Below, piece by piece: positions 8,013 to 58,501 of a stretch of DNA of 64,000 nt. The DNA is from Acidithrix ferrooxidans. Its GTDB lineage: Bacteria > Actinomycetota > Acidimicrobiia > Acidimicrobiales > Acidimicrobiaceae. The stretch spans positions 1-64,000 of the forward strand of contig NZ_JXYS01000078.1 of the NCBI RefSeq assembly GCF_000949295.1, in the 5' to 3' direction. Every line of letters starts with the position of its first letter. Position 1 is the first letter of the stretch. Position numbers and translations under genes: made by a program. The notes beneath the pieces were generated by a model. That model was not told the origin of the DNA. It made no database searches and saw only the letters and a list, made by a program, of their open reading frames with translations.

Positions 8013-8899
8013 GACTTGTATCCCAAGTAGTTCCATCCCGCAAGCGCGAAGTCCCTGCCATCGGACCGAGTCCACTTCTGTGAAGCATCGAACAGGTACT
8101 TGCACTCGTTTACCTCGCGCCACCTCCCATCGACGGCGATCGACTCAGACCCCTCCAGCTGGTTGTAGATGTGACCAAGGGTCCCCCGAACAAGTTCGGT
8201 CCAGGTCGATAGGTTCAGCACAGCGTCAGGGATGTTATAGACCAGGCATTCGACGAAGAACGACGGCACCTCCCGATGCACACCAGCAGTTACCATTGCA
8301 TTCTCGAGGCGCTTCATGATGCGCACGGCCTTCTTGTAACGCTGGTTGGTCCGTTGATTCTTTAAGTTACCGTTCGCTTTCTGTTGATCGGGATAATTTA
8401 GTAGCGAACTGTTGTCAGTCTTGAAGACCTTGGTGCCTTCCAGGAAGTTATCCGGACTGAAGTAATAACGGTGGTCAAAGCACGGTACGACATCTGCGTC
8501 TACTCGAGCACTGCCTGATTTGATTGTAAAGGCGGTTGATCCAGAAGAGTCAACTTGCCCCGGAAATTTCGCTTCTAGCGCTGTCTTGAGTTCGGATCGC
8601 AATCTGGCCGGTGTCCAAGGACCCGTGTAAGGCGTGCCAACAGGCTTCACGCCTGGCGTCACTTCATTCCAGTAGAGGGCGTTGGTGCATTGGACGGCTA
8701 TATCTACATCGCTATCTGAGCGGACGTTCGTGTTGTTCGCGTAGGACCCTTTCGCGTACACCTTCAGGGAGCAGTTTGCGAATTCGGCATGATTCCGAAC
8801 AGCCTCACGGATCATGCGCTCGGTGCGGTCCTGCTTCTCCTGCTCGGTGTCACTGGACGGGCCAGTCCAACCACTAAGTTTGTCTTCAAGCGCGGTCAT
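8009..8899 (-). CDS. CBASS CD-NTase (cGAS/DncV-like nucleotidyltransferase)
   Basis: A 296-aa protein. The nucleotidyltransferase signature GSYANNTNVRSDSDVDI (about 50-66) supplies the G-S turn and two catalytic Asp, and a third acidic position comes in ARVDADVVPCF (about 130). The C-terminal helical half contains RIMKRLENAM and FFVECLVYNIP, the SMODS-type core seen in CD-NTases. On phage infection these enzymes make cyclic oligonucleotide second messengers; the product here cannot be predicted. The start overlaps the hsdR stop (TCATGA) and the stop overlaps the effector start. No Cap2/Cap3 ubiquitin-like or HORMA/TRIP13 genes are adjacent, so this is a minimal type I-like CBASS. Confidence 0.85.
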   Translation of the reverse strand: MTALEDKLSGWTGPSSDTEQEKQDRTERMIREAVRNHAEFANCSLKVYAKGSYANNTNVRSDSDVDIAVQCTNALYWNEVTPGVKPVGTPYTGPWTPARLRSELKTALEAKFPGQVDSSGSTAFTIKSGSARVDADVVPCFDHRYYFSPDNFLEGTKVFKTDNSSLLNYPDQQKANGNLKNQRTNQRYKKAVRIMKRLENAMVTAGVHREVPSFFVECLVYNIPDAVLNLSTWTELVRGTLGHIYNQLEGSESIAVDGRWREVNECKYLFDASQKWTRSDGRDFALAGWNYLGYKS

Positions 8900-11800: not shown

Positions 11801-12000
11801 ACGGACGCGGGATCGATGCCCTTATTAAGCCGTATCATCGCTTCACGAAGGCGTTCATATAGATAAACCTGACTCCAGGAAGACCGTTCTGCGAACTGTG
11901 TGTCAGGAGCAATCTCAGGGCCGAACTCTGTCGAGTATCCAAGCTCTCGCAGGTACTCCAGTGCCGCCGTTTCGACGGTTGATTCGTTGAGTAGGTTCAA
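8896..12000 (-). CDS. hsdR: Type I restriction enzyme, motor/nuclease subunit HsdR
   Basis: About 1034 aa from a TTG start at 12000 that overlaps the Ymh stop as TTGA; an upstream start at 12033 is possible. The N-terminal nuclease domain contains IIEGKNRRPDVLVF and ALFELKN (PD-(D/E)xK type). The motor has Walker A HTQGSGKSFEMV (about 300) and DEAHRSQYG Walker B, followed by VIVRDMWLTGFDSP and the Q-AIARVNR motif. The C-terminal helical region ends with ITIDWNFKASVKAE. HsdR cuts unmodified DNA after ATP-driven translocation, together with HsdM and HsdS, both encoded just upstream. Its last 280 bp are duplicated at 5440-5720. Confidence 0.93.
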   Translation of the reverse strand: MNLLNESTVETAALEYLRELGYSTEFGPEIAPDTQFAERSSWSQVYLYERLREAMIRLNKGIDPASVDEAVKRLERAESQNAVTENKRVHELMRDGVPLERRTTDGQLRTDRIHLIDFDHTSNNEWLAVNQFTIIEGKNRRPDVLVFLNGIPVALFELKNLADEHATLRNAWNQVQTYRSDIPSIFTPNVVTVISDGTSAAMSSFTGAFEHYAPWKTMDGREVVTNRPALEVLVKGVFDQKRFLDILQNFVVFSDEGKGLVKRVAKYHQYWAVNAAVESTVEAAGPNGDRRGGVVWHTQGSGKSFEMVFFAAKLMRDPRMNNPTLVFITDRNDLDDQLFGEVFAPAEILPEKPVRADSRIELRQLLRRASGGILFTTLQKFAPEVGGDTNPVLTDRRNVVVVADEAHRSQYGFTETLGADGTLKSGLAKHLRDALPNATYLGFTGTPIESADKSTRSVFGDYIDVYDLTRAVEDGATVKIYYESRLAKVSLNDDAHADIDALADEITEEVEESDAIRAKSRWSRVEAIVGASERLDLIAADIVDHWEKRRAELFGKAMIVAMSRRIAVELYDRIVKLRPDWHSDDPKAGKIKVVMTGSAADPTPFQRHLYDKKTRTELKSRAKDPDDPLEIVIVRDMWLTGFDSPALHTMYVDKPMQGAGLMQAIARVNRTFRDKPGGLIVDYIGVATNLRKALAEYSPSDQDQAGVPIEEMVAVMLEKHDVVRAILYGCPFDSSPLLSASERLGQHASVLDFVMADPDRTSRFLDQVLALTRAFALCGARDEAVAIRNDIRLFADVRAAIIKIQNPDSGRAGSGGVEIDTAISQLVNEAVSADEVIDIYKLAGVDTPDLSILSDEFLDSLAGKEKPNLQMGLLRRLINDQIRTIQRSNLVQARKFSEQLDEAINRYTNRALSTAEIIAELVKLAKEMRDQNTRHEQLGLSVAEAAFYDAIVQNDSAVLTMGDEVLKKIAVDLVTQVQSSITIDWNFKASVKAEMRAKVRRLLAKYDYPPDLEEKAVELVLQQAELFASSEATS
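8900..9178. repeat. hsdR 3'-end direct repeat, copy A
   Basis: Within intact hsdR; partner of 5440-5720 in the same orientation. The two copies flank the CBASS, 85-aa, Abi_C and ATPase-fragment genes. Confidence 0.8.
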
Positions 12001-12722
12001 GGCGTGGCCTCCACGATCGCCTCGTCCACCCACCGAGCAAGAACGCTAAGCGCCGCTAGATACTCAAGTGCAACCTGTTCGTCAATGTCCTTTGGATCTT
12101 CGTGGTTGAATGGATTCCGGATGCCTGAATAGATCCCTTCGGCAAGTGCCATAGCGCCACGCTGGACTGACCTATAGGTGTCGCTGCCATCATTCGTCAT
12201 GCGACGCAGACGAGACTTCCCGGTGATTGGAGCATCAGTACTAAAAGCTTCCTGGAATAGGTTCTTCTCGCTGACATCCCTGCGTCCGACCTTGTTCTGT
12301 GTCTCCGCATTGACCTTCTTCGCAGCATCTTCAACCGCAGACCTATAGTGGCCCGATTGCCAAAGCGAGGAGGCACCATTCCAGACCCATGGGTGAAGTT
12401 TTGCTGCTGATATTTCGGGAGCATTCTCGCCAAGATTCTTTTGGAGCTCCTCCTGTCTAAGCAGTGACTCTTTTGCCCGTAGCGCTACCTCATGATGGAG
12501 TGCCCACTTCTTCCGACGAGTATCGACTTCGAGTGAACGCCAACCCGGGATCGCCCGATTTAGTATCTGCTCGACAATCTGTGCCTTTTTGACGACCTCA
12601 ACCTCTGACTCTGCGGTCTTATAGGTCCCTACACTTATAACTCCAGACGGCGCCCGTACATGATGAACTTCCGTTGCACTAATGAAGTCCTGGAGCTGGT
12701 TGAGAGCCCATTCGGTATTCAT
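11997..12722 (-). CDS. TIGR02391 (Ymh) family protein
   Basis: A 241-aa protein. The C-terminal half carries the Ymh/TIGR02391 pattern: WNGASSLWQSGHYRSAVEDA, then KNLFQEAF, a basic stretch, and GIYSGIRNPFNHEDP followed by EYLAALSVLARWVDEA. The family is common next to type I restriction genes and in prophages, and its function is unknown. The N-terminal half is helical. It lies between hsdS and hsdR with 4-bp overlaps on both sides, so it is co-translated with the restriction system and may be an accessory or regulatory partner. Confidence 0.8.
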   Translation of the reverse strand: MNTEWALNQLQDFISATEVHHVRAPSGVISVGTYKTAESEVEVVKKAQIVEQILNRAIPGWRSLEVDTRRKKWALHHEVALRAKESLLRQEELQKNLGENAPEISAAKLHPWVWNGASSLWQSGHYRSAVEDAAKKVNAETQNKVGRRDVSEKNLFQEAFSTDAPITGKSRLRRMTNDGSDTYRSVQRGAMALAEGIYSGIRNPFNHEDPKDIDEQVALEYLAALSVLARWVDEAIVEATP

Positions 12723-13888
12723 GCCACCGCCTCCGACACTCGAATCCGTCCGGAGAGCAGCTCCGGAAGTAGTGCATCTCTAATTTGCCCTAATAGAAGG
12801 ATCTCGTGCTCAAGCTGCACGGATCTCCTCTCGAGCGCAAAGAGATCCCCCTCGAGTTCAGTTGCAAAATCGACAGAAGGAAGTGCGACCTTCAGGGAGC
12901 CAAGCATCGTTGGACTCAATTCCGTCTGTCCTGTGCTCCCTGTCGCAAGGCCCTCGATATCCATCTCTCGACCGAACAGCGCGTATGCGAGAACGGTAGG
13001 GGGAACTACGTCGCTGTTTGGCTTGACCACGGACACGTGGCCGTCAACAAAGATGCTCCCCTTGTGCCAGCGACCAACACGGCCAAGCGTCCCGGTACCA
13101 GTTGAGTTTACGAGAATGTCTCCACTTGAAGCCTTCTTAGCGATCGCCACCTGTCGGTCGACCATCCGTCTCGCTGGGCCAAGCGAAATCCGTCCGTCGC
13201 GAACGCACCTCTGATTCAGCACGAGCGGTGCTAGAGGATCGTCATCGGCGTAGTTCGGTGCGATACCGCGCGCAATTGATATCGAGACATCAGAAAGAGG
13301 TAATCGACGCTCGTTCCCGCGACTTATGACGTACTCGAATCTCGCCATACCAAGCTCCCGAAGCAACGAGTAAGCCCGTCGATTCGACTCAATCTTGTCG
13401 TCCAGCGCTCCCAACGTGGCCGCAATACCGCGCTGCTCTTCGAGTGGAGGGAGTAGTACTTCAATTGCCGAAAGAGTAGAGCCAGATATTTCCTTGAAAG
13501 TTGAGCCGTTGGCCCGCCTCTCAAACTCATCTTTCATTGACCCAAGTAGGTAGTACATAAATAGGGTATCAACCTCATCACCTGGAACGAAACTACGGCA
13601 GCCCTGATTAGTCGTTAGAGGAACAGCTGCAATAGCCGTCAACCCAATTGGTGCTCGACTTGACAAGATGACCGTGCCAGTAGGAAGCAACTTTGCCGAT
13701 GATGCTCTTAGCCCGGAATCTGTGATGCTTCGCTCTCCAGTCCTCACAAATCGAGAGCGCTGCCTCGATAGATCTTTTGGCGTGATCCATGGATATCCAT
13801 CGCCAAAGTGCTTGCTATTAGCTGTGGAAGGTGTGCCTCCGCCAACAATGGTGCCAGCCTGTCCCAGTGATACGCTCCTCCAATTCAC
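12719..13888 (-). CDS. hsdS: Type I restriction enzyme specificity subunit HsdS
   Basis: A 389-aa protein with the two-fold layout of HsdS: TRD1 (residues 1-150, starting WRSVSLGQAGTIVGGGTPST), a conserved helix (LPPLEEQRGIAATLGALDDKIESN), TRD2 (about 200-340) and a second helix (ALERRSVQLEHEILLLGQIRDALLPELLSG). The TRDs read the two half-sites of a bipartite target that cannot be deduced from sequence. Overlaps with hsdM and the Ymh gene are 4 bp each. Confidence 0.9.
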   Translation of the reverse strand: MNWRSVSLGQAGTIVGGGTPSTANSKHFGDGYPWITPKDLSRQRSRFVRTGERSITDSGLRASSAKLLPTGTVILSSRAPIGLTAIAAVPLTTNQGCRSFVPGDEVDTLFMYYLLGSMKDEFERRANGSTFKEISGSTLSAIEVLLPPLEEQRGIAATLGALDDKIESNRRAYSLLRELGMARFEYVISRGNERRLPLSDVSISIARGIAPNYADDDPLAPLVLNQRCVRDGRISLGPARRMVDRQVAIAKKASSGDILVNSTGTGTLGRVGRWHKGSIFVDGHVSVVKPNSDVVPPTVLAYALFGREMDIEGLATGSTGQTELSPTMLGSLKVALPSVDFATELEGDLFALERRSVQLEHEILLLGQIRDALLPELLSGRIRVSEAVA

Positions 13889-15474
13889 AGCAGCAACTCT
13901 CCGAGTCGCTCCCGAACAACTTCTTCGAGCCGTCGCCCTTCCTCAAACTCAGCAAACAGCTCCTTTTTGAGTCGAGCAATCTTTTCATCAATCGGTTCGT
14001 CGTCGACCTCGGCCTCCTCGGCGCCGACGTACCGGCCCGGTGTGAGGACAAAGTCATGATGCTTAATCTCATCTAGATTGGCAGACTTCGTGAAACCGGC
14101 TACGTCCTCGTATGTGCCATCGTGGTGACGCCAGGCATGGTATACGTTAGAAATTTTGGCGATGTCTTCGTCAGTAAGCACCCTTAGTCGGCGACTCTCC
14201 ATTTTCCCAAGCTTGCGGGCATCAATAAAAAGCACCTCGCCCTGACGACTGCGGTGTCCGTTGCCGTGGCGATCCTTGCTGACGAACCACAGGCTGACGG
14301 GAATACCAGTATTGAAGAACAGCCTGTCGGGCATCGCCACGATGCAGTCAACCAGGTCGGCCTCGACGAGCTTGCGGCGGATGTCTCCCTCGCCGCTGGT
14401 CTTGCTCGACAGCGAACCATTTGCAAGGACGAAGCCAGCGGTACCTTTCGGCGACAAGTGATAAATGAAGTGCTGCACCCAAGCGAAGTTGGCGTTACCT
14501 TCAGGTGGAGTGCCGTACTTCCAACGTGGGTCATCTGCAAGTTTGGCATCCCACCAATTGCTGACGTTGAAAGGTGGATTTGCGATGACAAAGTCTGCCC
14601 GCAGATCTGGGTGTAAGTCATTAGCGAAGGAGTCATCGGAGTGATCACCCAAGTCGGCCTCGATGCCTCTAAGCGCAAGGTTCATCTTGGCCAGCTTCCA
14701 GGTGGTGTCGGTGAACTCCTGCCCATAAATCGAAATATCAGTGCGCTTGCCGCCGTGAGCTTTCACGAACTCGGCGGACTGCACGAACATTCCTCCCGAG
14801 CCACAAGCAGGGTCATAGACACGACCGTGATAGGGCTCCAACATCTCGACCAATGTCTTAACAATGGACCTCGGGGTGTAAAATGCTCCGGCGTCCTTGC
14901 CGGTCTCCTTGCCAGCAAACTGCCCTAGGAAGTACTCATACACTCGGCCTAGCACATCGTCAGAGCCGTGGTCATCGGACTCGGTGAATCCAATCGATCC
15001 GATAAGGTCGACGAGCTGGCCAAGACGTCCCTTGTCAAGGCCTTCGCGGCCATAGTTGCGGGGCAAGACACCTCGAATCGACGGATTCTCCTTCTCAATT
15101 AGATCCATCGCCGCATCAATGTCCTGACCAATAATTGGGAGCTTGGCTCGGTCCTGAATGTGCTGCCAGCGAGCGTCGGCCGGAACCCAGAAAACGTTGT
15201 GGCTTGTGTACTCGTCACGATCCTCGATGAGCCGAGAGCGCCTCTCGGGGTTAGGAATGAAATCAGCGGAGTCGGGATCGCTCAGGCTCGTTTCGATAGC
15301 CTGGCGACGTACCTCAAACCGATCGGAAATGTACTTGAGGAAGACTAATCCGAGAACGATATGTTTGTACTCGCTCGGCTCCTGGTTGCCTCGAAGTGCG
15401 TCCGCAGTATCCCACAGGCGCTGTTCGAGCGTCTTGGCTGGCTTCGTCGCAGTCTTGCGAGGTTGGCCCGCCAT
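13885..15474 (-). CDS. hsdM: Type I modification subunit HsdM (N6-adenine methylase)
   Basis: A 529-aa protein. The N-terminal helical domain includes WDTADALRGNQEPSEYKHI. SAM-binding motif I is VYDPACGSGGMFVQ (about 218) and catalytic motif IV is IANPPFNVS (about 297), marking an N6-adenine methylase. The AFYTPRSIVKTLVEML segment is typical of HsdM. The C-terminal helix GRRLEEVVRERL contacts HsdS in known complexes. It is the first gene of the minus-strand defence operon, with a plausible ribosome site (GAAAGGAAT) and the promoter at 15535-15563. Confidence 0.93.
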   Translation of the reverse strand: MAGQPRKTATKPAKTLEQRLWDTADALRGNQEPSEYKHIVLGLVFLKYISDRFEVRRQAIETSLSDPDSADFIPNPERRSRLIEDRDEYTSHNVFWVPADARWQHIQDRAKLPIIGQDIDAAMDLIEKENPSIRGVLPRNYGREGLDKGRLGQLVDLIGSIGFTESDDHGSDDVLGRVYEYFLGQFAGKETGKDAGAFYTPRSIVKTLVEMLEPYHGRVYDPACGSGGMFVQSAEFVKAHGGKRTDISIYGQEFTDTTWKLAKMNLALRGIEADLGDHSDDSFANDLHPDLRADFVIANPPFNVSNWWDAKLADDPRWKYGTPPEGNANFAWVQHFIYHLSPKGTAGFVLANGSLSSKTSGEGDIRRKLVEADLVDCIVAMPDRLFFNTGIPVSLWFVSKDRHGNGHRSRQGEVLFIDARKLGKMESRRLRVLTDEDIAKISNVYHAWRHHDGTYEDVAGFTKSANLDEIKHHDFVLTPGRYVGAEEAEVDDEPIDEKIARLKKELFAEFEEGRRLEEVVRERLGELLL

Positions 15475-22731: not shown

Positions 22732-22744
22732 GAACGGAGTGCCC

Positions 22745-24478
22745 ATGTCAAGCGATTCTGCCATACTGGGAGTATTGGGTGCTGCACCTTCAAAGACTGC
22801 AATCATTTACCTGCGCGTCTCCACCGCCGACCAAGCCAAGCGTGGCGGACGAGAGGAAGGGTTCTCTATTCCTGCCCAGCGTGAAGCTAACACCCGAAAA
22901 GCTGCGTCGCTGGATGCGCTCGTAATTGAGGAATTCGTCGATGCGGGAGAATCCGGTACCTCAGCGGCCAAGCGGCCTGAACTCCAGCGCATGTTGTCCT
23001 ATGTTCGGGAATATCACGTGGATTACTGCATCGTCCACAAACTCGACCGTCTCGCTCGGTCCCGAGCTGATGACGTCGCTATCCACTTCGCCTTGAAGCA
23101 AGCGGGAGTTACACTGGTCAGCACCAGCGAGAACATCGACGAGACCCCATCGGGGATGCTCATGCACGGCATCATGAGTAGCATCGCCGAGTTCTACTCC
23201 CGCAACCTCGCCAACGAGGTCACTAAAGGACTGGTCCAGAAGGCGAGCGTCGGTGGCACAGTTTCCCGAGCGCCACTTGGCTACAGAAACATCCATGTCA
23301 ACGATGCGCTCGGACGAGTCAACCGAACTGTTGAGATCGATACCGAGCGAGCGCACTTGATCACCTGGGCGTTCTTTCGATACTCCGAAGGTGATCCAAC
23401 GCTTCGGACGCTGCTCGATGAACTGACAGCTCGTGGGCTTACCACACGAGCAACACCCAAGTGGCCATCCAAGCCGTTGACAATTACCGGCCTCCATAAA
23501 TTGCTCCGCAATCCGTATTACAAGGGAGAGATCCGTTACCGGAATATCACCTACCCCGGACTCCATGAACCCCTGGTTGATCCACAGACATGGCAGCAGG
23601 TCCAGGACCTACTCAGTGCCCACAACACCGCCGGAACACATCAGCGAACCAACAACCACTACTTGCGAGGAAGTGTATTTTGCGGGTCCTGTGGTTCTCG
23701 GCTAATGATCACAACAGCCCGTAATAGATGGGGCACCGAATACCTCTACCTTGTCTGCTCTGGTCGAGCGAGAAGGGTCACCGACTGTCAACGACAGGCG
23801 ATGTCAGCGGAGATGGTCGAGGAAATCATTGAGGACGAGTACCGCACTATTGCACTCTCGCCAGCGTTGCGAGACAGCATCGAAGAGCTTGTCTTGGAGG
23901 ACGTCGACACCTTACAGGCCGGTTCCGCAACCGAGCGAAAACAGATGGACAACCAGCGCATTGAGCTAACCGCCCAACGTCAGAAGCTGCTCGATGCTCA
24001 CTACGCCGGAGCAATTCCACTTGATCTACTGAAGATCGAACAGGACCGGATTGCTGGTCAGATCGCACGAATTGAAGATCAGTTTGCTAGCCTCGATGCG
24101 AACTTCGAGCAAGCACGAGCAGTATTGGCCGACACGCTGGATCTGACTCGAGACTGTCATACCGCCTACCTGGAAGCCAACGACAGCACCAGGAGGCTCT
24201 TCAATCAGGCGTTCTTTGCCAGGATCTACATCGATGAAGATGACGAGACACGAGAGCAAACTGTCCGAGTTGACTACAACGAGCCCTTCGACACTTTGCT
24301 CTCACGCCTCATTCCAGCGAGCGTTCATCGCACTCTTGACATAAAAAATACCGCCTACCGGGAAATCCCGACGGGCGGTTCTAGCGTAGCATCAAGCGGC
24401 ATCGCTGAGGTGCAGGGTTCTCATACGGATACTTTGGTGGGCGCTAAGGGACTCGAACCCCCGACCTCAGCCGTGTGA
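22745..24478 (+). CDS. Large serine recombinase (integrase), C-terminus set by att site
   Basis: About 577 aa from ATG 22745 (GGAG five bases upstream); GTG 22739 is an alternative. The catalytic resolvase domain starts IIYLRVSTADQAKRGG with the nucleophilic Ser, followed by the QREA region and LDRLARSRADD. The recombinase domain follows (about 165-290), then a zinc ribbon FCGSCGSRL with a second pair CSG-x-DC, then a coiled-coil region. The last residues (GAKGLEPPTSAV) are encoded antisense to tRNA-Val, so this end was created by integration. The truncated copy at 829-1701 shares this region but continues into an HTH tail. It should integrate and excise the element at tRNA-Val. Confidence 0.9.
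   Translation: MSSDSAILGVLGAAPSKTAIIYLRVSTADQAKRGGREEGFSIPAQREANTRKAASLDALVIEEFVDAGESGTSAAKRPELQRMLSYVREYHVDYCIVHKLDRLARSRADDVAIHFALKQAGVTLVSTSENIDETPSGMLMHGIMSSIAEFYSRNLANEVTKGLVQKASVGGTVSRAPLGYRNIHVNDALGRVNRTVEIDTERAHLITWAFFRYSEGDPTLRTLLDELTARGLTTRATPKWPSKPLTITGLHKLLRNPYYKGEIRYRNITYPGLHEPLVDPQTWQQVQDLLSAHNTAGTHQRTNNHYLRGSVFCGSCGSRLMITTARNRWGTEYLYLVCSGRARRVTDCQRQAMSAEMVEEIIEDEYRTIALSPALRDSIEELVLEDVDTLQAGSATERKQMDNQRIELTAQRQKLLDAHYAGAIPLDLLKIEQDRIAGQIARIEDQFASLDANFEQARAVLADTLDLTRDCHTAYLEANDSTRRLFNQAFFARIYIDEDDETREQTVRVDYNEPFDTLLSRLIPASVHRTLDIKNTAYREIPTGGSSVASSGIAEVQGSHTDTLVGAKGLEPPTSAV
24037..24440 (+). repeat. Direct repeat, right copy (recombinase 3' end / att)
   Basis: Partner of 829-1230. 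The last 31 bp are identical and end at the CCA/discriminator end of tRNA-Val, giving the right junction of the element. Confidence 0.8.
24341..24379 (-). terminator. Terminator of tRNA-Val, inside the recombinase gene
   Basis: Nested arms ACCGCC / GGCGGT (24350-24355, 24374-24379) and CGGG / CCCG around AAAT, followed on the minus strand by ATTTTTTAT. It lies 56 bp after the tRNA 3' end in the tRNA's direction, antisense to the recombinase, so the element supplies the tRNA transcription stop. Confidence 0.75.
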
Positions 24479-25000: not shown

Positions 25001-26083
25001 TCAATAGAAGATACTTTTGCACTTATGTGATAGTGACAGTCTGTATTTGCCCGATAACAACGGATCATGTTTTGAGGTCCAAATTGCGGCGTCAATTTGA
25101 TTGGGATAAAGAGTAATTCCATCACCCAGGAGCTTTGCGTGAATCATCTCCACACTTTGAATAGTTGCTGCACGAATCTCTACCTCCGCCCATGAGCTAT
25201 ATTCGAGGCGCCCCCCTAGTTGAATGTGACTCTCTAAAGCGGGGTCATATTCTAGGACTTTTTCAACCCGAAGGACATGTGGAAGTGAATTATCAGCAAA
25301 TGCAGTAAGCTTGTGGATCCCTGAAATGCAAAAAGGTATTTGAGCGACATCTAGATTTTTGTGGTGGAAGCGCCAAATCATATCGAGATCCGAGAGGATT
25401 ATCTGTGCCTTTTTGAGGGGGTAAAAAGCTATCTCATTGATCTCATAGTAATCAGCCAAGGCTGGTAACTCAATTAGAGTCTTGAGGCAGTCATCAACAT
25501 CGCGGTTTAGGTACTTTGCGAATTCGACAAAGCTGTCGGCGAAATTACCTTCTAAGTACATACCCAGTTCGTTTACAGCTTTTACCAGGAGATCTATCAA
25601 AATTGATACTTGAGGTGAAGGATCTCTTTGTTGGAGGATCTCGGTCATTTGGTCCGAAGTGATGTTGGTTAGGTGAGATGGTTTGAAAGGGTAGTGCTCC
25701 ACGAAATATGAGGTAAGGCCCTGTGCGAAGGTGAGATAGCCAGATCCAGTTGAATTTTTTTGAAGATCCTCGAAGTACCCAGAGCCAAAGTTGAGATAAT
25801 CAACGACTATTACAAATGCAAAGCTGGCGATTGGGTCGCTCAGAATCCAAAATCTAGGGTCTAACTCTTTGTCGTAGTCGATTGCATATTGCAGAAGTCG
25901 ATCGCTATATGAATTTAAATGAGCTTCATTGATTGTGACCCATGAAGACGACAAGGAAAGTTCTTTAGCGCCACTTCGGATATCGCTTGTTCCGCTAAAT
26001 CTTTTGGGAGAGATTGCGACCTTGAGCGGGGTTACAAAAGCCGAATTATCCTGATTGGGGCTGGATGGGAGCCGTGTTGTCAA
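25001..26083 (-). CDS. Queuosine-salvage family protein (PF10343-type)
   Basis: A 360-aa protein of about the usual family length. Recognisable blocks are FWILSDPIASFAFVIVVDYLNFG, then EFAKYLNRDVDDCLKTLIELP, LADYYEINEIAFYPLKKAQI, LTAFADNSLPHVLR, the acidic VEIRAATIQSVEMI, and a C-terminus with basic residues ending in KCKSIFY. The family (DUF2419, human QNG1) releases queuine from queuosine 5'-monophosphate. It is the last gene of a four-gene coupled unit with SDR, MftE-like and EtfB; the start overlaps the SDR stop by ATGA. Its place in a mycofactocin-type operon is unexpected, and a different nucleoside or cofactor substrate is possible. Confidence 0.75.
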   Translation of the reverse strand: MTTRLPSSPNQDNSAFVTPLKVAISPKRFSGTSDIRSGAKELSLSSSWVTINEAHLNSYSDRLLQYAIDYDKELDPRFWILSDPIASFAFVIVVDYLNFGSGYFEDLQKNSTGSGYLTFAQGLTSYFVEHYPFKPSHLTNITSDQMTEILQQRDPSPQVSILIDLLVKAVNELGMYLEGNFADSFVEFAKYLNRDVDDCLKTLIELPALADYYEINEIAFYPLKKAQIILSDLDMIWRFHHKNLDVAQIPFCISGIHKLTAFADNSLPHVLRVEKVLEYDPALESHIQLGGRLEYSSWAEVEIRAATIQSVEMIHAKLLGDGITLYPNQIDAAIWTSKHDPLLSGKYRLSLSHKCKSIFY

Positions 26084-26877
26084 AGGTGCATTCCAGCATC
26101 GACAAAGATTTCAGCTCCGGTGATGGCAGAGGCAGCCGGTGACAATAGAAAAGAGATAGCTTCTGCTATCTCTTTTGGATTGATTAGTCGACCCAGGGCA
26201 TGGTGTATTGAAAACTCTTCTACGTCGCTAAGGCCATAAAGGACAGCCGATTGATCCAACATTGCACCCCTGGTTGATCCCGGACAGACCCAATTGACAT
26301 TGATTTGATCGGGTGCCAGCTCTAGAGCAAGGGTTCGTAGGTATGCAACCATTGCGCCCTTAGCAGCGCAGTAGGCACCAATTCCACCGAGTGCCTTTGA
26401 AGCTGCAACCGACACAACCGCCACAATTGATGCGCTTGAGCTGCGCTCTTTTGTCTCTTTCATGAGAGGTATGAAGGAGGTGATGGCGTTGTGTAGCACC
26501 ACTAAGTTAGCATCGATCATCGATAGAAGTTCTTGTGTTGAGGTCTCAACCAGCGACTTTCCACCAAGAATTGCACCTGCGGTAATGGCAAGTTGATCGA
26601 TGGGTCCCATATCATCTTGTATTTGGGTTGCGATACGGGCTAAATCAGCACCATTGGTTGCATCCGCACCATATCTGCTGATCTTTTCCTCAAGATCACC
26701 ATAGGTAGCGCTTTTGATATCTCCCATTTGATATCCAAAGCGCATCGTCACTTCACTAAAGTCGACTACTGCACATCTACGTCCTGATGATGCGGCGATC
26801 TTCGCGACCTCGGCTCCGATGCCTCGTGCTCCACCTAGTACAACTAGGCAACCTTGATCTGTCGTTAGATCACTCAT
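26080..26877 (-). CDS. SDR oxidoreductase, mycofactocin-coupled type
   Basis: A 265-aa protein from ATG 26877 (ATGA overlap with the MftE stop). Rossmann motif GGARGIGAEVA lies near residue 15, and catalytic residues lie in VVSVAASKALGGIGAYCAAKGA (Ser, Tyr-x-x-x-Lys). After the second beta strand (CAVVDFSE) there is an extra stretch of about 30 residues (MRFGYQMGDIKSATYGDLEEK). Insertions here are typical of mycofactocin-dependent SDRs that hold NAD tightly and pass electrons to mycofactocin. Substrate unknown; alcohols or hydroxy-acyl compounds are likely. Adjacent MftE and ETF genes support the electron route. Confidence 0.8.
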   Translation of the reverse strand: MSDLTTDQGCLVVLGGARGIGAEVAKIAASSGRRCAVVDFSEVTMRFGYQMGDIKSATYGDLEEKISRYGADATNGADLARIATQIQDDMGPIDQLAITAGAILGGKSLVETSTQELLSMIDANLVVLHNAITSFIPLMKETKERSSSASIVAVVSVAASKALGGIGAYCAAKGAMVAYLRTLALELAPDQINVNWVCPGSTRGAMLDQSAVLYGLSDVEEFSIHHALGRLINPKEIAEAISFLLSPAASAITGAEIFVDAGMHL

Positions 26878-27647
26878 AGGGTAGGCCAATTGATCGCTTT
26901 AGGTGGGATAGACTTATAAAACCGATCGTAGGTCTCGATCAGTGCATCACTGAAAGCTCCTAAAATGGCTGCACCTTCAGTGGCGCTTGAGCCGGTTGGG
27001 TCGCCTAAAACACCGTTCTTTGAGACCGCAGATACCCCTAGGTTGCGCATGACTTCCATGATCTCTGAAGGCTCAGCGACACTACCGGGCCTAGCCAGGC
27101 TCATCTGTACTAATTCAGGAACCAACGCTAACATTGCGGAAGTTTCTGTTCTTCCAGCATGAAGATCTGGAGCCTCCATCCCCTGGGCGCCACCTGGTCC
27201 GCTCCATCGATAGGCTGCTTTTTGAAGAATCTCAAGGGTGGGCCACCAGGCGGTTGCGAACCTGCCTTCGCTTCTAAGTTTTTGGACCGCTTTTGCCATT
27301 GCCTCTACGTTACCCCCATGAGCGGTGACAAAGATGATTCCAGCAAAGTGATCGACGCTTCTACCTAATTCTAAAAGGACGAGTTCGAGGGCATTTTGGC
27401 CAATTGATAAGGTGCCTGCAAAGGAGGAGTGTTCGCCGCTGGAGCCGAAGTTGACGCTAGGTGCCAAAAGAGTGCTCTCGGCTCGACGTGTTGCGAGTGC
27501 CTCGGCCAGCGCGATGGTCATAATTGAGTCGGTAAATAGCGGTAGATGCGGGCCGTGTTGTTCGGTGGATCCCACCGAAAGAATGATCACTGACCTCTCG
27601 GCAACGGCTGCAACCTCGGGGTGGGTCATCTGAGCCAGAACCCTCAA
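26874..27647 (-). CDS. mftE: Creatininase-family peptidase, MftE-like
   Basis: A 257-aa metal-dependent amidohydrolase. Metal-binding and fold motifs are GSTEQHGPHLPLFTD (about 26-40), FGSSGEHSSFAGTLSIG, VTAHGGNVEAM, DLHAGRTETSAML and the MftE-like GDPTGSSATEGAAIL. MftE removes the C-terminal Val-Tyr dipeptide remnant during mycofactocin maturation. It starts at TTG overlapping the EtfB stop (TTGA), with an internal ATG at 27629 as alternative. The precursor gene mftA, mftB and the radical-SAM gene mftC are not in the window, so the enzyme either serves a distant locus or processes another substrate. Confidence 0.8.
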   Translation of the reverse strand: MRVLAQMTHPEVAAVAERSVIILSVGSTEQHGPHLPLFTDSIMTIALAEALATRRAESTLLAPSVNFGSSGEHSSFAGTLSIGQNALELVLLELGRSVDHFAGIIFVTAHGGNVEAMAKAVQKLRSEGRFATAWWPTLEILQKAAYRWSGPGGAQGMEAPDLHAGRTETSAMLALVPELVQMSLARPGSVAEPSEIMEVMRNLGVSAVSKNGVLGDPTGSSATEGAAILGAFSDALIETYDRFYKSIPPKAINWPTL

Positions 27648-28453
27648 TTTGACTCCTTGTGGCGCGAGACTGCCTCTAGGACTATCTCTGCGGCTGAGTC
27701 GGGATTAACTTCAATTAGTTCACGTCGTCTAGCATCTATCGCCCCTCCCATTAGGGATCTAATGCGCATTATCGCACGATCTCCAATTGGGCTTTGTGTG
27801 ATAGTGGTTGGCGCACTTCGCCCTTGGTCATCTAGATACCAGGTAGCAGGTAGGCCATTTGAATCTTGTAAGCCCACAGTTTCAATTTGAGCTGCTTTAG
27901 CCTCGATCAAAGTGATCAGATCTCCGCGTATTTCAATATTTGTTGGGGCGCATCCAAGTGCGATTGGTAGCTGTGTGATCTCCGAGAGGAGATGTGAGCT
28001 TCCATCAAAGTGCTCAATCGTGAACTTGCCTTTGGTCTGTTTTACCCCTTCGACACCAAAGAGGTACCCTATGGATAAGTTTCCAGCTACAATTGCGCCA
28101 AAGAGGCCACTTCCAGTATCTGCTGAATAGTCTCCAAATAAGAGAGCCATTGGAGCTATTGATCTGATTAGCGATGCCAATTGATCCTTATACACAAAGG
28201 CTGCACCTTGGGATGGGTCACCAATGACTAGGATCGCTCGATCGACTCCTAGGCTAAGCGCCTCTAAAAGTGCATCTTGGTCATGCGCTTCACCTAGGGT
28301 TATCGCGATGGTTTTACCGCCGGAAGTGCCACTTAGATCCCTTGCTATGGCGATGGCATTTCGTTCTGATGGAGTTAGACCCCCAAAATATCGTCGGGAG
28401 GTGTGATCAACATTGCGATATGAGTTTTTTACAAAGACAATCGTGTCCTTCAA
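27644..28453 (-). CDS. Electron transfer flavoprotein beta subunit
   Basis: A 269-aa protein from TTG 28453 with a GGAGG ribosome site. Characteristic features are IVFVKNSYRNVD at the N-terminus, LTPSERNAIAIARDLSG, IAITLGEAHDQDALLEALSLGVDRAILV and LLFGDYSADTGSGLFGAIVAGNL, the FixA/EtfB fold that binds AMP and contacts EtfA. Its partner EtfA and the FixC/FixX genes lie 25-32 kb away on the same strand, beyond the repeat-bounded segment. It collects electrons from dehydrogenases and passes them to the quinone reductase. Confidence 0.85.
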   Translation of the reverse strand: MKDTIVFVKNSYRNVDHTSRRYFGGLTPSERNAIAIARDLSGTSGGKTIAITLGEAHDQDALLEALSLGVDRAILVIGDPSQGAAFVYKDQLASLIRSIAPMALLFGDYSADTGSGLFGAIVAGNLSIGYLFGVEGVKQTKGKFTIEHFDGSSHLLSEITQLPIALGCAPTNIEIRGDLITLIEAKAAQIETVGLQDSNGLPATWYLDDQGRSAPTTITQSPIGDRAIMRIRSLMGGAIDARRRELIEVNPDSAAEIVLEAVSRHKESN

Positions 28454-29682: not shown

Positions 29683-30155
29683 AGGTGCTCCATTTCCTTT
29701 GCAGTTTTCACATCGCCTTCGGTGTCTTCAGAGAGAATCGAGTAAATATTACCGCGGTATACGGCGGTTGGGGAGTTTGAGCAAACATGGATGCGGTTTT
29801 AGCCTTACACCGCTACGAGATATCTGCATCCTGCGCCACGACCGCAATTTCGGTTGCATTATGGTTGGATGGAGTCGCCAAGCCAGTGTGCACGTTGCAA
29901 CATCTCGTCGAATTGCACCCGCCCATCTGTTGTGATCAAGCGCATAGTAAGAGCATGCCTGAGTGATAGTGGGCCTTGATGCATCCCTAAGATTCCGACA
30001 CGGGAGTGCGAGTGCCAGTCTGGTTAAGCCGGGGCAGCTTTGATGGATATTTAAGGACTTTGCCTCGGCCCTGGTCGCCCGGCCACTATTATATCTAGCT
30101 TAGAATAGAATAAATAGTAGCCGAGACTACTGGTGATCAATTGGAAGGAGAGAAA
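29683..30155. other. Intergenic stretch upstream of the DUF2249 gene
   Basis: No convincing gene in 470 bp; a plus-strand frame at 29645-29935 starts inside the repeat and has no recognisable product. A small palindrome TACCGCGGTA occurs near 29750. The last 70 bp hold the AT-rich operator candidate at 30085-30118. Confidence 0.5.
30085..30118. promoter_or_regulatory. AT-rich inverted repeat upstream of DUF2249 gene
   Basis: ACTATT (30085-30090) and AATAGT (30113-30118) flank ATATCTAGC..., and the left half CTATTATAT is shared with the site at 32217. It lies about 40 bp before the gene start, a likely regulator-binding position. Confidence 0.45.
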
Positions 30156-30404
30156 GTGGTGACTGACAATGGATGTGGAAAGGCCGATTTGGTACTCGAC
30201 GTCAGGGCAATGCTGGCTGGAGGGCAGGAACCGTTCGACGCGATTATGCAGGGCGTCGCCGCCTTAGAAGAAGGTCAGGACCTCGTGGTAATCGCGCCGT
30301 TTGAACCTGTCCCCTTAGAAGGTGTACTTTCCGGACAGGGTTTCACCTATCAAGTTACGGAATTCTCTCCGGAACACTTCTCCGTCACTTTTCATCGGGA
30401 CTAG
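30156..30404 (+). CDS. DUF2249 domain protein
   Basis: About 82 aa from GTG 30156 (GGAAGGAG seven bases upstream; GTG 30159 also possible). The DUF2249 fold is visible: LVLDVRAMLAGGQEPFDAIMQ, then ALEEGQDLVVIAPFEPVPLEGVL and a C-terminal strand FSVTFHRD. It is TusA-like in shape but without the catalytic Cys-Pro. These proteins accompany hemerythrin, NnrS and haem-copper proteins in nitric-oxide stress clusters. First gene of a short plus-strand unit with the SufT-like gene. Confidence 0.75.
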   Translation: MVTDNGCGKADLVLDVRAMLAGGQEPFDAIMQGVAALEEGQDLVVIAPFEPVPLEGVLSGQGFTYQVTEFSPEHFSVTFHRD

Positions 30405-30479
30405 TAGTACGCAATGATGAAATTGGGAAGATACAAAGAAACAGTTTTGGGCACTCAAACTGGAAATGTGGGGTAGAGA

Positions 30480-30800
30480 ATGGTGGAGGAAACGGCTAAA
30501 AAAGAGATCCTTGATCTGGCATGGTCGGCGCTTCGAGGGGTTATCGATCCAGAATTAGCGTTAGATATTGTTGCATTGGGTTTGATCTACAGGATGGAGT
30601 TCGTAGAAGACCGGCTCGAGTGCGACATGACCTTGACAACACTGGGCTGCCCGGTCTCCGAATCGATGCCGATCCAAGTTCAGGAGGTACTAGAGCGTTG
30701 CTGTAGTACTGAAGTAGAAGTCAAGTTGGTGTGGAGTCCTCCATGGGGTGTAGAGATGATCGACCCGGTAAGCGCCAAGGCACTTGGCCTTCGCCGATAA
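30480..30800 (+). CDS. MIP18/SufT-like iron-sulfur assembly factor
   Basis: A 106-aa DUF59-type protein: LRGVIDPELALDIVALGLIY, DMTLTTLGCPVSESMP with the conserved Thr and Cys, and VKLVWSPPWGVEMID. SufT-like proteins help mature Fe-S clusters, and PaaD-type relatives do so for specific enzymes. Its place between a DUF2249 gene and a haem-copper-like gene suggests repair of clusters damaged by nitric oxide (inference). Confidence 0.85.
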   Translation: MVEETAKKEILDLAWSALRGVIDPELALDIVALGLIYRMEFVEDRLECDMTLTTLGCPVSESMPIQVQEVLERCCSTEVEVKLVWSPPWGVEMIDPVSAKALGLRR

Positions 30801-30836
30801 GAATAACTCGAGGTTGACGCTGATGGATCTTCGACG

Positions 30837-32189
30837 TCAACCGGCTTCTGATTGACTCGCATCACCGAAGTGTGAGAGCATTCGAGACGGCCTAATCGCT
30901 AGGTTCAATGATACCGATATAGCGGCCAGGGCTAGCGCCGCAGACCCGATGGAGAATAACACCCCAGTCATAGTCGCCAAGCCGACGATGATAAATGTGA
31001 AACCCGATGTCACTATGACAAAGCTGGCCCTGGCCACCGATGGATTTAGCAGGTCGGAGAAGACCAAGGGTTTGTTATTGCGGGTGAACTTTACCCCCGA
31101 AGCACGCAGAATCCCCCAGGTGATAAATGGTACGACCTTGTGAGCGTGACCGATAACCGCAAGTGCGATCCATGCGCCGAGGGATACTATCTCAGCAGCT
31201 GCAAGTTGCGTCCGCAACTGTGAGCCCGCCTTAGACAGAACGGAAGCGATAGCGAAGCCGATGGCTCCAACTAGGAATATCGCCGAGACGACGACGTATC
31301 CCTGAAGTAGCTCCAACTTGCGCCGTCTCCCGGATACTACTCTCGCCAGGGTATACAGGTGTGAACAAAGGGCAATTACGATAATTACCCCCGCGGCTGT
31401 TGCGATCAAAGTACTCGATGCGAGCATTCCAATCACGAAGATGGTCACTCCAATTGCAAGCCCCCAAATCGCTATCTGGCTCGATCTGTTTGACTTTCGA
31501 TGAGAGAGCATAAACATCGGCCAGAGCTTTTCAGATACGGCAACGTAGCTTATGCCTAGCCAGCCCAGAATGCCGATATGGGCATGCGCGATGACCAAAT
31601 TCGGAGACAAAGCGAAAAAGCTCTCGTGAGCATTGCGGTCCACTGCGTAGGTGATGCCAAAGCAGGCCACAGCGACGAGCATTATCGAAGATATCCGGGC
31701 GCCGGTAATCGAGATTCCCTTCCCTCTTACCATAAGTGGTTTGGAGAGGTTGATCACGAGCAAAACGACACCAATCACCGCAAGTATGCCTGAGGCGACG
31801 ACCATTGGGTTTATCTCGAGGAGGAAGCTGGTTGCAAGACCGATCGAACCCGCTGCGAAGAGTCCGCCGCCCCAGTAGGAGAGTTGGGGGTGTCTGAGCT
31901 TCTGTCCCGAAATGACCGGGATGAACTGGTGCATCGCACCAAGGACCGCCATCGACGCCACGCCCAGCATGAACATGTGGGTCATTCCTATTGCCAAGTG
32001 ACCCATTGGATTGTCAACTACCCTTGAGCCGAGAAAGATCCCGAGGATTCCATCTGTGAAAAGCGCAAGTGCGGCAATAGAAAAGAAACCAAGGGGCAGC
32101 CGTGGTGGTGGGACGCTCTTAGGCATGCCAAGGTTTGAATGCGAGTAGTTGCTAGCCGGACCCGGAGAATCAATTGGAACGCCATTCAC
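30837..32189 (-). CDS. Haem-copper oxidase subunit I-like membrane protein
   Basis: A 450-aa protein of about twelve membrane helices from GTG 32189 with a GAGGTAAC ribosome site. Conserved histidines sit in HLAIGMTHMFMLGVASMAVL and AMHQFIPVISG, in VIAHAHIGILGWLG, and in VIGHAHKVVPFITW, a pattern like the haem and metal ligands of NorB/CcoN-type subunits and NnrS. No subunit II or III is present. A nitric oxide reductase or tolerance role is suggested by hemerythrin and DUF2249 neighbours. It is divergent from the hemerythrin gene and converges on the SufT-like gene. Confidence 0.65.
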   Translation of the reverse strand: MNGVPIDSPGPASNYSHSNLGMPKSVPPPRLPLGFFSIAALALFTDGILGIFLGSRVVDNPMGHLAIGMTHMFMLGVASMAVLGAMHQFIPVISGQKLRHPQLSYWGGGLFAAGSIGLATSFLLEINPMVVASGILAVIGVVLLVINLSKPLMVRGKGISITGARISSIMLVAVACFGITYAVDRNAHESFFALSPNLVIAHAHIGILGWLGISYVAVSEKLWPMFMLSHRKSNRSSQIAIWGLAIGVTIFVIGMLASSTLIATAAGVIIVIALCSHLYTLARVVSGRRRKLELLQGYVVVSAIFLVGAIGFAIASVLSKAGSQLRTQLAAAEIVSLGAWIALAVIGHAHKVVPFITWGILRASGVKFTRNNKPLVFSDLLNPSVARASFVIVTSGFTFIIVGLATMTGVLFSIGSAALALAAISVSLNLAIRPSRMLSHFGDASQSEAG

Positions 32190-32218
32190 GATTGTGTTAC
32201 CTCACTTATGCCGAAGCC

Positions 32219-32246
32219 TATTATATTTCTATTGCAGAGTATAATA
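32219..32246. promoter_or_regulatory. Operator candidate between divergent NO-cluster genes
   Basis: Perfect 7-bp arms TATTATA (32219-32225) and TATAATA (32240-32246) with a 14-bp spacer lie between the GTG starts at 32189 (minus) and 32260 (plus). The left part resembles the site at 30085. The adjacent regulator at 33631 is a candidate binder. Confidence 0.5.
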
Positions 32247-32259
32247 AAAAGGAGACGAA

Positions 32260-33018
32260 GTGAGCGACCATGTTGAGAATTTAGAGTCCAATGGTGCATA
32301 TATTCCAGTGGCATTGGGGAACAAGCCGACCGAAGCACAACGAGTGCTGAGCGCTATCGAAGCTCACCACGCCGAGATGGCACAGAGGCTCTCAGCATTA
32401 GCGAATTCCATGGCAAAAGGTGCATCGCCCGAGGCCCACTCGCTGTTGGCGAATGACTTCTCCAGTTATTTGAGAAGCGATATCCTTCCCCACGCACAAG
32501 CAGAAGAGACCAGCGTCTACCTTCGAGCGCAAAAAGTTGGCCTGGCGGATGTGGTTGAGACGATGCTTTTCGAACACCGCTACCTACGGGCAAAGATCGA
32601 TGAGTTCGAGACCCTTTCTGGATCGGAACAGGCAGCTGTCGCGCTGGTGATCAGCGAGGTATTTTCGATACATGCCCAGAAAGAGAACCTCTTTATCTTG
32701 CCGCAGGTTCTATCTTCGGTCGCAGATGACGAGGTTTCCCAGGTACTCTCTGAGATCCAGCGGGAGTTCGTCAAGTCAAAGAGCACTCCAGTTATCTCAA
32801 CGATCGATCTGCGGCCACTGCCACCAAGAGCCCGCCACGACGTCGTCTTTTCGAAGATACAATCCATAAAGAGCGGTGACGCAATTACGGTATTAAACGA
32901 CCACAACCCCAAACCACTCTTCTATCAGATCGACGCTCTTTGGCCCAACAGCTATAGGTGCACAATCGCCCGGGTTGACGATAGGACATTCACGATGGAG
33001 ATTACAAAGCTTGGCTAA
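32260..33018 (+). CDS. Hemerythrin-DUF2249 fusion protein
   Basis: A 252-aa protein from GTG 32260 with AAAGGAG. Residues 25-155 form a hemerythrin four-helix bundle: AIEAHHAEMAQRL, LPHAQAEETSVYL, MLFEHRYLRAKIDEFE and FSIHAQKENLFILPQV supply the His and Glu ligands of a di-iron site. Residues about 180-250 are a DUF2249 domain starting ISTIDLRPLPPRARHDVVF. Such fusions are linked to oxygen or nitric-oxide binding and Fe-S repair. The following gene starts inside its stop region. Confidence 0.85.
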   Translation: MSDHVENLESNGAYIPVALGNKPTEAQRVLSAIEAHHAEMAQRLSALANSMAKGASPEAHSLLANDFSSYLRSDILPHAQAEETSVYLRAQKVGLADVVETMLFEHRYLRAKIDEFETLSGSEQAAVALVISEVFSIHAQKENLFILPQVLSSVADDEVSQVLSEIQREFVKSKSTPVISTIDLRPLPPRARHDVVFSKIQSIKSGDAITVLNDHNPKPLFYQIDALWPNSYRCTIARVDDRTFTMEITKLG

Positions 33019-33538
33019 TGGTGACCCAAACCTTGATCTCTTGGTCCCTTCGTTGAGTGGTGTTGTCATTGACCTTTCCAAGGCCTTAGCCAAGTCTGGC
33101 GAGCCACGATTAGCGGCGACCCTTCTGTCTCGGGCATGGGTTGAGCTCTATCGAAGCGGCGAATTTGCAAAGCAGGCCAAAGCGATGGAGGCTACGATGC
33201 ACTCAATATCTCGTCTTGATCATTCCGACGTTGATCGAGGAGGCATGGACCTCAAGAGGCCCGACGGCCATGAAGCGGACTCGCAACCGGTCGACTTACG
33301 ACCCCTCGCTCCGATCGATAGACATGCAGAGGTAATTTCCCGCTTTGAAGCCTTGGCGGATGGCGATGAGTTTGTCCTCGTAAACGACCACGATCCCAAG
33401 CCGCTCTACTACCAGCTCAAGGCGGAGTATGACAAGGTTTTCGATTGGGATTATCTAAAAGGTGGCCCCGAAGAATGGATAGTGAAGATCACCATTTCGC
33501 CTGGTCAACAATCTCGAGATCAAGAGGATCAGTGTTGA
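33011..33538 (+). CDS. DUF2249 protein with helical N-terminal domain
   Basis: The frame is open from 32975; the start is placed at TTG 33011, overlapping the previous stop, and is uncertain. The first 75 residues form a helical domain (LSKALAKSGEPRLAATLLSRAWVEL). The C-terminal 75 residues are a DUF2249 domain, VDLRPLAPIDRHAEVISRF and FVLVNDHDPKPLYYQL, closely resembling that of the preceding fusion. The two C-terminal domains are probably paralogous. Confidence 0.7.
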   Translation: MANGDPNLDLLVPSLSGVVIDLSKALAKSGEPRLAATLLSRAWVELYRSGEFAKQAKAMEATMHSISRLDHSDVDRGGMDLKRPDGHEADSQPVDLRPLAPIDRHAEVISRFEALADGDEFVLVNDHDPKPLYYQLKAEYDKVFDWDYLKGGPEEWIVKITISPGQQSRDQEDQC

Positions 33539-33630
33539 TCCCGCACGGCTTCAAAAACAGCTATGGTTCCGGACTAAGTTGTCTTGGTGGGGTGGGTTTA
33601 ATATGGTGTGCACGCTAGGTGGAGTAACAA

Positions 33631-34350
33631 ATGGCAGATACTGTTTCTGAGCTTCCCGGGGGAAAATTGGCACTTTCACCGGTCTTCGGGCCCGGTGATG
33701 AGTTGCGGAGTAGGGCGGTGGCCCTAGGAGACCCGACCCGGTATCGGATCTTCGAGCACCTGCTTAAATCGGCCGAACCTGTCTCAGTTTCCGAACTGAC
33801 CGAATTCACCCGACTCAACCACACCGGAATTCGCCATCACCTTGAGATTCTCCGTCGATCGGGACTCATCGACGAATATCGTGAACCGCCCAAGGGGCGT
33901 GGCAGACCTCGCCTGCTATACGAAGCGTCGGCGGAAGCCAAAAGGGGCCCGACGAAGGCGTACGAGCGTCTGTCATTACTTCTAATTGAAGCCATGACTA
34001 CACAAAGTTCCGTTAGGACTATCGGGAGAAAGGAAGGCGTCCGACTTGCGACCGAATTAGCGCCGAAGTATTCCGACCCTGTTCGGGTAATCCATGAGGC
34101 GATGATTGGGTGGGAGTTTTCGGTAACTCTCGTAAATAATCGAGATTTTGCTGCCGTCGTCCTCAATAAGTGCCCACTTGAATCAGCGGTCAATCTCGCC
34201 GGCAAGACAGTATGTGGGCTGCATTTAGGAATTATAGAAGGAATCCTATCCAAATTACAGGGCCTTGAGCTGACCGATTTCGAGATTCATCTCCCGAAAG
34301 TCGCCGCGTGTAAGATCGAACTACGACGTCACACCGAATCTGCGGAATAG
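33631..34350 (+). CDS. ArsR/SufR-like regulator with C-terminal cysteines
   Basis: A 239-aa protein. The winged helix (about 25-95) includes LGDPTRYRIFEHLL, VSVSELTEFTRLNHTGIRHHLEIL and the wing PPKGRGRPRLLYEAS. The C-terminal domain holds NKCPLESAVNLAGKTVCGLHLGI and AACKIEL, a Cys set like that used by SufR-type regulators to bind an Fe-S cluster. Loss of the cluster by nitric oxide or oxygen would change DNA binding. It probably controls the neighbouring DUF2249, hemerythrin and haem-copper genes through the AT-rich inverted repeats. Confidence 0.75.
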   Translation: MADTVSELPGGKLALSPVFGPGDELRSRAVALGDPTRYRIFEHLLKSAEPVSVSELTEFTRLNHTGIRHHLEILRRSGLIDEYREPPKGRGRPRLLYEASAEAKRGPTKAYERLSLLLIEAMTTQSSVRTIGRKEGVRLATELAPKYSDPVRVIHEAMIGWEFSVTLVNNRDFAAVVLNKCPLESAVNLAGKTVCGLHLGIIEGILSKLQGLELTDFEIHLPKVAACKIELRRHTESAE

Positions 34351-55142: not shown

Positions 55143-55155
55143 CTATGGCCCTTTG

Positions 55156-58499: not shown

Positions 58500-58501
58500 C
58501 T

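Follow-up and report, generated by a model that had tools for sequence, protein, structure and literature searches.

Gene content of the cluster

We analysed a 64,000-nucleotide stretch of Acidithrix ferrooxidans DNA (NZ_JXYS01000078.1, positions 1 to 64,000 of the forward strand; hereafter, the window), which corresponds to contig C78 of a 4.02-Mb genome in 183 contigs. Six genes, here termed DUFa, FeSP, MEM, HemDUF, DUFb and REG, were found across 30.1-34.35 kb; DUFa and FeSP are oriented rightward, MEM leftward, and HemDUF, DUFb and REG rightward. As shown in Table 1, an operator is present in two copies, one upstream of DUFa-FeSP and one in the region that separates MEM from the divergent HemDUF; REG is its candidate regulator. 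Among the matches listed, those closest to the window in named genomes were metagenome-assembled Acidimicrobiaceae/Actinomycetes.

A preliminary description of this DNA had proposed this gene content, with three domains of unknown function DUF2249, one of them fused to hemerythrin. Both points were confirmed, and the three DUF2249 domains of the cluster were the only ones found in the whole genome; within the family, DUF2249 was present in 21/42 genomes. Judged by eye, the likelier start of DUFa is the GTG at 30156, which follows AAGGAG, and the probable start of DUFb is the TTG at 33011, which overlaps the end of HemDUF.

Table 1. Genes and operators of the cluster, with positions in the window.
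Feature	Position	Strand	Description	Evidence
Operator 1	30093..30110		ATCTAG-CTTAGA-ATAGAA, upstream of DUFa-FeSP	matrix 29.8, top in window; perfect tight-pattern match
DUFa	30141..30404	+	single DUF2249 domain	PF10006, 50.4 bits, cut-off 29.5
FeSP	30480..30800	+	iron-sulfur (Fe-S) assembly protein, PF01883 (DUF59/MIP18/SufT-like) family	PF01883, 46.1 bits, cut-off 23.5
MEM	30837..32189	-	450-residue membrane protein, 12 helices, haem-copper oxidase subunit I / NorB fold in the model	AlphaFold2 model, Foldseek
Operator 2	32227..32244		TTCTAT-TGCAGA-GTATAA, between divergent MEM and HemDUF	matrix 22.7, second in window; perfect tight-pattern match
HemDUF	32260..33018	+	hemerythrin domain fused to DUF2249	PF01814, 42 bits, cut-off 25.3; PF10006, 58.3 bits
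DUFb	33011..33538	+	helical linker and DUF2249	PF10006, 87.5 bits; model pLDDT 85
REG	33631..34350	+	HTH_20/ArsR-like regulator with C181, C195, H198 and C227	HTH_20, 49.7 bits

Conservation was examined in the best 80 of 130 MEM relatives from genome contigs (1.193 Mb in total); many of these contigs were short, DUF2249 labels may swap between proteins, and some loci were near-duplicates. Across the 80 MEM loci, BLAST at E 1e-3 recovered FeSP in 72, DUFa in 68, HemDUF in 52 and REG in 47. The cluster had been called elaborate, and a coherent gene set is indeed conserved in many genomes, but part of the apparent complexity reflects a local gene split. In particular, hemerythrin, linker and DUF2249 formed one protein in 16/18 aligned more distant relatives (L118 and L135 had no linker), whereas the clade of the window divides them between two genes, with HemDUF lacking the linker and DUFb containing it.

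A conserved operator at both promoter regions

The inverted repeats that had been described upstream of the DUF2249 gene and of the divergent hemerythrin and haem-copper-like genes are real, and the proposal of a shared AT-rich operator held in that one operator was found at both promoter regions. The AT-rich string itself, CTATTATAT, is merely a flank; the conserved operator is an inner dyad with the consensus TTCTAG-N6-CTAGAA. CTATTATAT is present twice in the window (30086-30094 and 32218-32226), which on its own is modest evidence because two matches were also reached by 2/100 shuffles. An imperfect inverted repeat spans 30080-30123, and alignments with close relatives showed that at both sites the conserved block reaches rightward beyond CTATTATAT; operator 1 was kept in three of these relatives and operator 2 in four. 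In the alignments of more distant relatives, the dyad TTTTTCTAG....ACTAGAATTAT was found in the DUFa-MEM intergenic region. We rejected CTATTATAT as the operator, as relatives beyond the close clade had no more than isolated, scattered AT strings of this type before module genes, while the inner dyad was kept.

The consensus was taken from alignments of 15 of the 80 loci, and the other 65 served as an uninspected test set. Across all 80 loci, we found 25, 49 and 69 sites at 0, 1 and 2 mismatches, compared with means of 0.03, 1.35 and 19.5 for 119 half-site permutations (maxima of 1, 6 and 59). The 65 uninspected loci alone contained 13, 41 and 54 unique sites, with 0.02, 1.1 and 16.2 expected. 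The spacing was equally restricted: 74 sites with at most one mismatch had a spacer of 6, and any other spacer between 0 and 14 gave at most 4. A weight matrix was then built from 116 distinct sites of loci L104-L179, excluding the window and the four loci most closely related to it. This matrix ranked the two window operators first and second in the window, and the third place scored only 10.7. At a score of at least 16, it gave 145 hits in L104-L179 and 0 in reversed sequence; since the 145 hits include training sites, the independent ranking and the 65-locus counts are the cleaner tests. The operator is thus real, conserved and sharply defined, and it is common to dozens of related bacteria.

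A motif search across the whole genome was informative, at most, in its strictest form. A tight pattern, which was written after the window sites were known, matched perfectly at two places, and these were the two window operators. The looser searches were no better than their controls: the plain consensus with two mismatches was too loose (141 places, control 444), and the tight pattern with one mismatch gave twelve places, against 25 at no more than one mismatch in the backward control, so that at most the perfect matches are informative.

Sites were assigned to genes when they scored at least 16 and lay -60 to 250 nucleotides upstream of the start, counting genes with at least 150 nucleotides of upstream sequence. 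As evident from these counts, sites stood upstream of HemDUF in 40/46 cases, DUFa in 50/64, MEM in 42/75 and REG in 22/44, but in just 2/70 cases upstream of FeSP, which follows DUFa. At least one such site was present in 70/80 loci, including 44/48 loci with REG. A genome of the same genus without DUF2249 (G009) contained REG, hemerythrin and the start of MEM, and a dyad scoring 32.9 lay between the latter two. Hits away from module genes numbered 16/145, two of which fell inside a labelled open reading frame, and each candidate gene was found in one or two loci. These candidates included a narG-like gene with a site 12 nucleotides upstream (L158), FAD-binding reductase genes (L152 by position; L153 and L155 by Pfam), and, in single relatives, a peroxiredoxin gene (L174) and an aa3 oxidase gene (L140).

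At both window operators, the right half-site falls on a promoter-like hexamer: operator 1 overlaps the -10-like hexamer TAGAAT at 30106-30111, which was assigned by eye, and operator 2 overlaps TATAAT at 32240-32245. A bound protein would therefore cover the -10 region, and for this reason repression would be favoured over activation.

The candidate regulator REG

The preliminary description of a regulator with three C-terminal cysteines was borne out. REG residues C181, C195, H198 and C227 were invariant in 32/32 rows (the window and 31 chosen relatives), and both the winged helix-turn-helix (HTH) and the three conserved C-terminal cysteines that characterise SufR were found. REG reached 44.1 bits against the ArsR/SmtB profile NF033788, below the cut-off of 55, and a search of solved structures with its sequence returned ArsR-type HTH parts only. 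By sequence, REG is SufR-like in layout and not SufR by profile score.

Two further regulators were observed. A REG paralogue in the same genome (27% identity over 197 residues; L242:3993-5945, contig C133) has as its divergent neighbour an ApbC/Mrp-like gene for an Fe-S carrier, which scored 242.7 bits, below the cut-off of 348; the paralogue showed weak SufR and MsvR matches, and the same gene pair was present in another genus (L243). Additionally, L118:1559-2740 encodes an HTH regulator with a C-terminal DUF2249 fusion and a sub-threshold MetOD1 match in between; the dyad was absent from this locus (5.7), and the similar-looking L129 had only a weak dyad (14.4).

The membrane protein MEM

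MEM had been described as haem-copper-like, and this description held for the fold of the model, whereas a standard copper site is less probable. No Pfam or NCBIfam family matched MEM at E 0.1, the PF00115 match was absent, a genome-wide COX1 search did not return the MEM locus, and no sequence match was found among solved structures. The AlphaFold2 model, which was built from 38 rows with a predicted local distance difference test score (pLDDT) of 89, has the subunit I fold of haem-copper oxidases and nitric oxide (NO) reductases. Compared with cbb3 subunit I, it gave a Foldseek TM score of 0.71 to 3mk7 and a Z-score of 33.1 to 8smr_E; compared with the cytochrome-c NO reductase 4xyd, the Z-score was 31.6. 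H71, H230, H277 and H348 were kept in 38/38 rows, H87 in 37, H202 in 32 and H350 in 31. In contrast, the His-His pair expected at CuB was found in 0/38 rows within residues 232-275, with any histidine at 235-258 in one row, the CuB region being placed by helix order.

The placement of the ligands relies on helix order because the profile alignments failed: the alignment to three COX1 proteins had a probability of 5%, and that to ten CcoN-like proteins had a probability of 23% and covered only MEM 28-109 against CcoN helices 9-11. MEM may be a haem protein without CuB and, with no His-His pair in the stretch where helix order would place it, is unlikely to be a standard oxidase or NO reductase. 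In one relative (L104:9431-11293), DUF2249 was fused to the N-terminus of a MEM homologue.

The hemerythrin, DUF2249 and FeSP proteins

HemDUF combines a PF01814 match with the di-iron ligand pattern of hemerythrins, and the ligand residues H36, H37, H78, E82, E83, H106, H138 and E142 were kept in 21/21 rows. FeSP falls in the DUF59/PF01883 family of Fe-S assembly factors and stayed below the NCBIfam SufT cut-offs (TIGR02945, 72.7 vs 143.4 bits; TIGR03406, 62.8 vs 202.6 bits). The last part of the DUFb model is a beta-alpha-beta-alpha-beta-beta domain, for which the TusA-like matches were weak. No fold match of the model reached E 0.001 (best E 0.015, the TsuB domain of 8j4c; 2lxr, TMt 0.73), and a sequence search of solved structures returned only a designed protein at E 0.24; a TusA-like character of DUF2249 may thus serve as a lead only. 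The HDPKP motif of DUF2249 stands, by eye, at what we take to be the position of the TusA CPxP motif.

A local stress regulon as the favoured explanation

With hemerythrin, a factor for Fe-S assembly and an HTH regulator bearing three cysteines, the cluster points to damaged iron centres as its theme. We favour, with roughly an even chance of being correct, a local NO/redox stress regulon under an Fe-S-sensing REG that acts via TTCTAG-N6-CTAGAA. In this plausible mechanism, REG would repress as a winged-helix dimer, with an Fe-S cluster bound by the three cysteines near its C-terminus. Its targets would be the dyads, which cover part of the -10 region of the DUFa-FeSP unit and separate the MEM unit from the divergent HemDUF-DUFb-REG unit. 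Loss or nitrosylation of the cluster would lift repression, and the products would bind or remove NO (or O2/reactive oxygen species) and rebuild iron centres. Hemerythrin would act through its di-iron site, MEM would be a membrane haem protein with the oxidase fold and without CuB, FeSP would be an Fe-S loading factor, and the DUF2249 domains may be partner modules between hemerythrin, MEM and FeSP. NO would be the likeliest single signal, with redox or iron stress as a serious rival.

Several results weigh against this explanation. NirK had no match in the genome, the best NarG match (E 2.8e-5) was under the cut-off, and the COX1 family was found at two places only, both of which we read as aa3-type oxidases; an internal NO source was therefore not found in the genome in this search for NirK, NarG and the COX1 family. 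REG scored 17.3 bits against SufR_cyano (TIGR02702; cut-off 178.8), over residues 36-122 of the HTH region only. With regard to the operator, ten of the 80 loci had no site of score 16, no site immediately precedes REG in the window, and 26/32 loci without REG in the examined stretch, where contigs are often cut, still have a site. Moreover, around five REG-like paralogues away from module genes (L038, L040, L041, L042 and L044; 39-42% identity), all sites in the examined stretch scored below 10. In separate searches beyond this genome, NirK was found in 1/42 genomes of the family, below the cut-off, and the operator was not found in the examined stretch of the twelve over-cut-off narG genes of the class (best score -2.8; L198-L209).

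The same operator and regulator could instead respond to oxygen/peroxide or to iron/Fe-S status, in a system for the general protection and rebuilding of iron proteins; we consider this less probable, though still a possibility of real weight. The extra sites before the peroxiredoxin and aa3 oxidase genes would fit such a signal, as would the genome's lack of NirK, an over-cut-off NarG and a further COX1-family gene, and SufR-type sensors respond to redox state and Fe-S status (PMC6034842). The site before the narG-like gene argues for NO, and so does what is reported of DUF2249 elsewhere: denitrifying conditions induce DUF2249 genes in Haloferax mediterranei (PMC11218638), and in Thermus such genes form part of clusters for nitrate respiration (PMC6282519).

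A more doubtful alternative is that some other regulator of redox, NO or iron responses binds the dyad and that REG has different targets. The 26/32 loci that carry the site without REG in the examined stretch mean that another factor could bind it, and the REG-like paralogues at other loci lack the site. However, REG is encoded in the same cluster, has the site before its own gene in 22/44 cases and is accompanied by a site in 44/48 loci, whereas no strong site was found at L118, L129 and L151, where the regulator is fused or divergent. The dyad is also presumably unlike the sites of FNR/NnrR, NsrR and SufR, which we count against this alternative. It is very improbable that the shared AT-rich pieces are mere -10 promoter elements, as the hexamers at the right half-sites and the shuffled copies of CTATTATAT might suggest, given that the core conserved in diverged loci is a dyad with a fixed spacer of 6, that the reversed sequence gave no matrix hit against 145 (partly the training set), that an independent matrix ranked the window sites 1 and 2, and that a simple promoter scan found no -35/-10 pair in this region.

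An extension of the favoured NO/redox regulon can be offered tentatively and is rather unlikely in its full form. The cluster may represent an undescribed NO- or redox-defence system of Acidimicrobiia and some neighbours, in which a SufR-like Fe-S sensor has its own operator code, the CuB-less MEM relays electrons or NO to the di-iron centre of hemerythrin, and TusA-like DUF2249 domains without the TusA cysteine act as docking or nitrosyl-iron carrier modules. Among the papers listed in a literature search, which left most subscription journals outside, none concerned this regulon, and DUF2249, whose function is unassigned, was mentioned in two papers of the library. If this proposal is true, DUF2249 would gain a defined function; gene context, the shared operator and fusions to hemerythrin, the oxidase homologue and an HTH regulator tie it to FeSP and to the SufR-like REG. 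If NO is the signal, a dedicated NO defence would be kept by bacteria in which denitrification genes were not found. With the operator defined, a single purified protein and two short DNA sites would suffice to test the regulon and, through it, the roles of DUF2249 and of the MEM family.

Other features of the window

Outside the cluster, adjacent UvrD-type helicase and OLD-like ATPase genes (1843-5438) match Gabija GajB and GajA (522.6 and 630.1 bits, respectively). A CBASS-type pair is present at 7305-8899, where an oligonucleotide cyclase (453.4 bits) adjoins a 2TM effector (256 bits), and type I restriction-modification genes (R, S and M) follow at 8896-15474. A serine-recombinase-like open reading frame (22739-24478) and a similar fragment (862-1701), both recognised by eye, suggest that the region is a mobile island. 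Mycofactocin-type genes were found at 26083-28453 and 53814-60541; MftE scored 231.3 bits (cut-off 172) and a mycofactocin OYE type 2 oxidoreductase scored 816.7 (cut-off 793), while EtfB/EtfA- and SDR-like genes among them were below their cut-offs.

Comparison with known systems

Haem-copper-oxidase homologue (HCOH) families were reportedly described by Pei et al. in 2014. Like these proteins and NnrS, MEM has the oxidase fold in its model, 12 helices and a few conserved histidines; unlike them, it has no Pfam or NCBIfam match. HemDUF resembles the hemerythrin-type repair proteins YtfE/Ric in its hemerythrin domain with di-iron ligand residues and in the Fe-S assembly gene nearby. The differences are that HemDUF is fused to DUF2249 and that the site is different and the HTH regulator is probably of the Fe-S type; a repair role here would be by analogy.

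The DUF2249 proteins of the cluster can be compared with those of denitrifiers (Haloferax mediterranei; Thermus thermophilus, with DrpA/DrpB), which are tied to nitrogen-oxide metabolism (PMC11218638, PMC6282519), and an association of DUF2249 with the haem-copper oxidase superfamily is cited in one of them (PMC11218638). In contrast, NirK, NarG and NOR-like genes were not found in the present genome, and the regulator and operator differ.

A close parallel to REG is found in cyanobacterial SufR and in Rv1460, the SufR homologue of Mycobacterium tuberculosis, which binds an Fe-S cluster and requires C203, C216 and C244 (PMC6034842). REG shares with these proteins the N-terminal winged HTH and three C-terminal cysteines (C181, C195 and C227), and both are located near Fe-S assembly genes. 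The structures of the two systems are nevertheless not identical: the cysteine spacing is x13/x31 in REG and x12/x27 in Rv1460, and REG would control a DUF2249, hemerythrin and MEM set rather than suf genes, through the operator TTCTAG-N6-CTAGAA.

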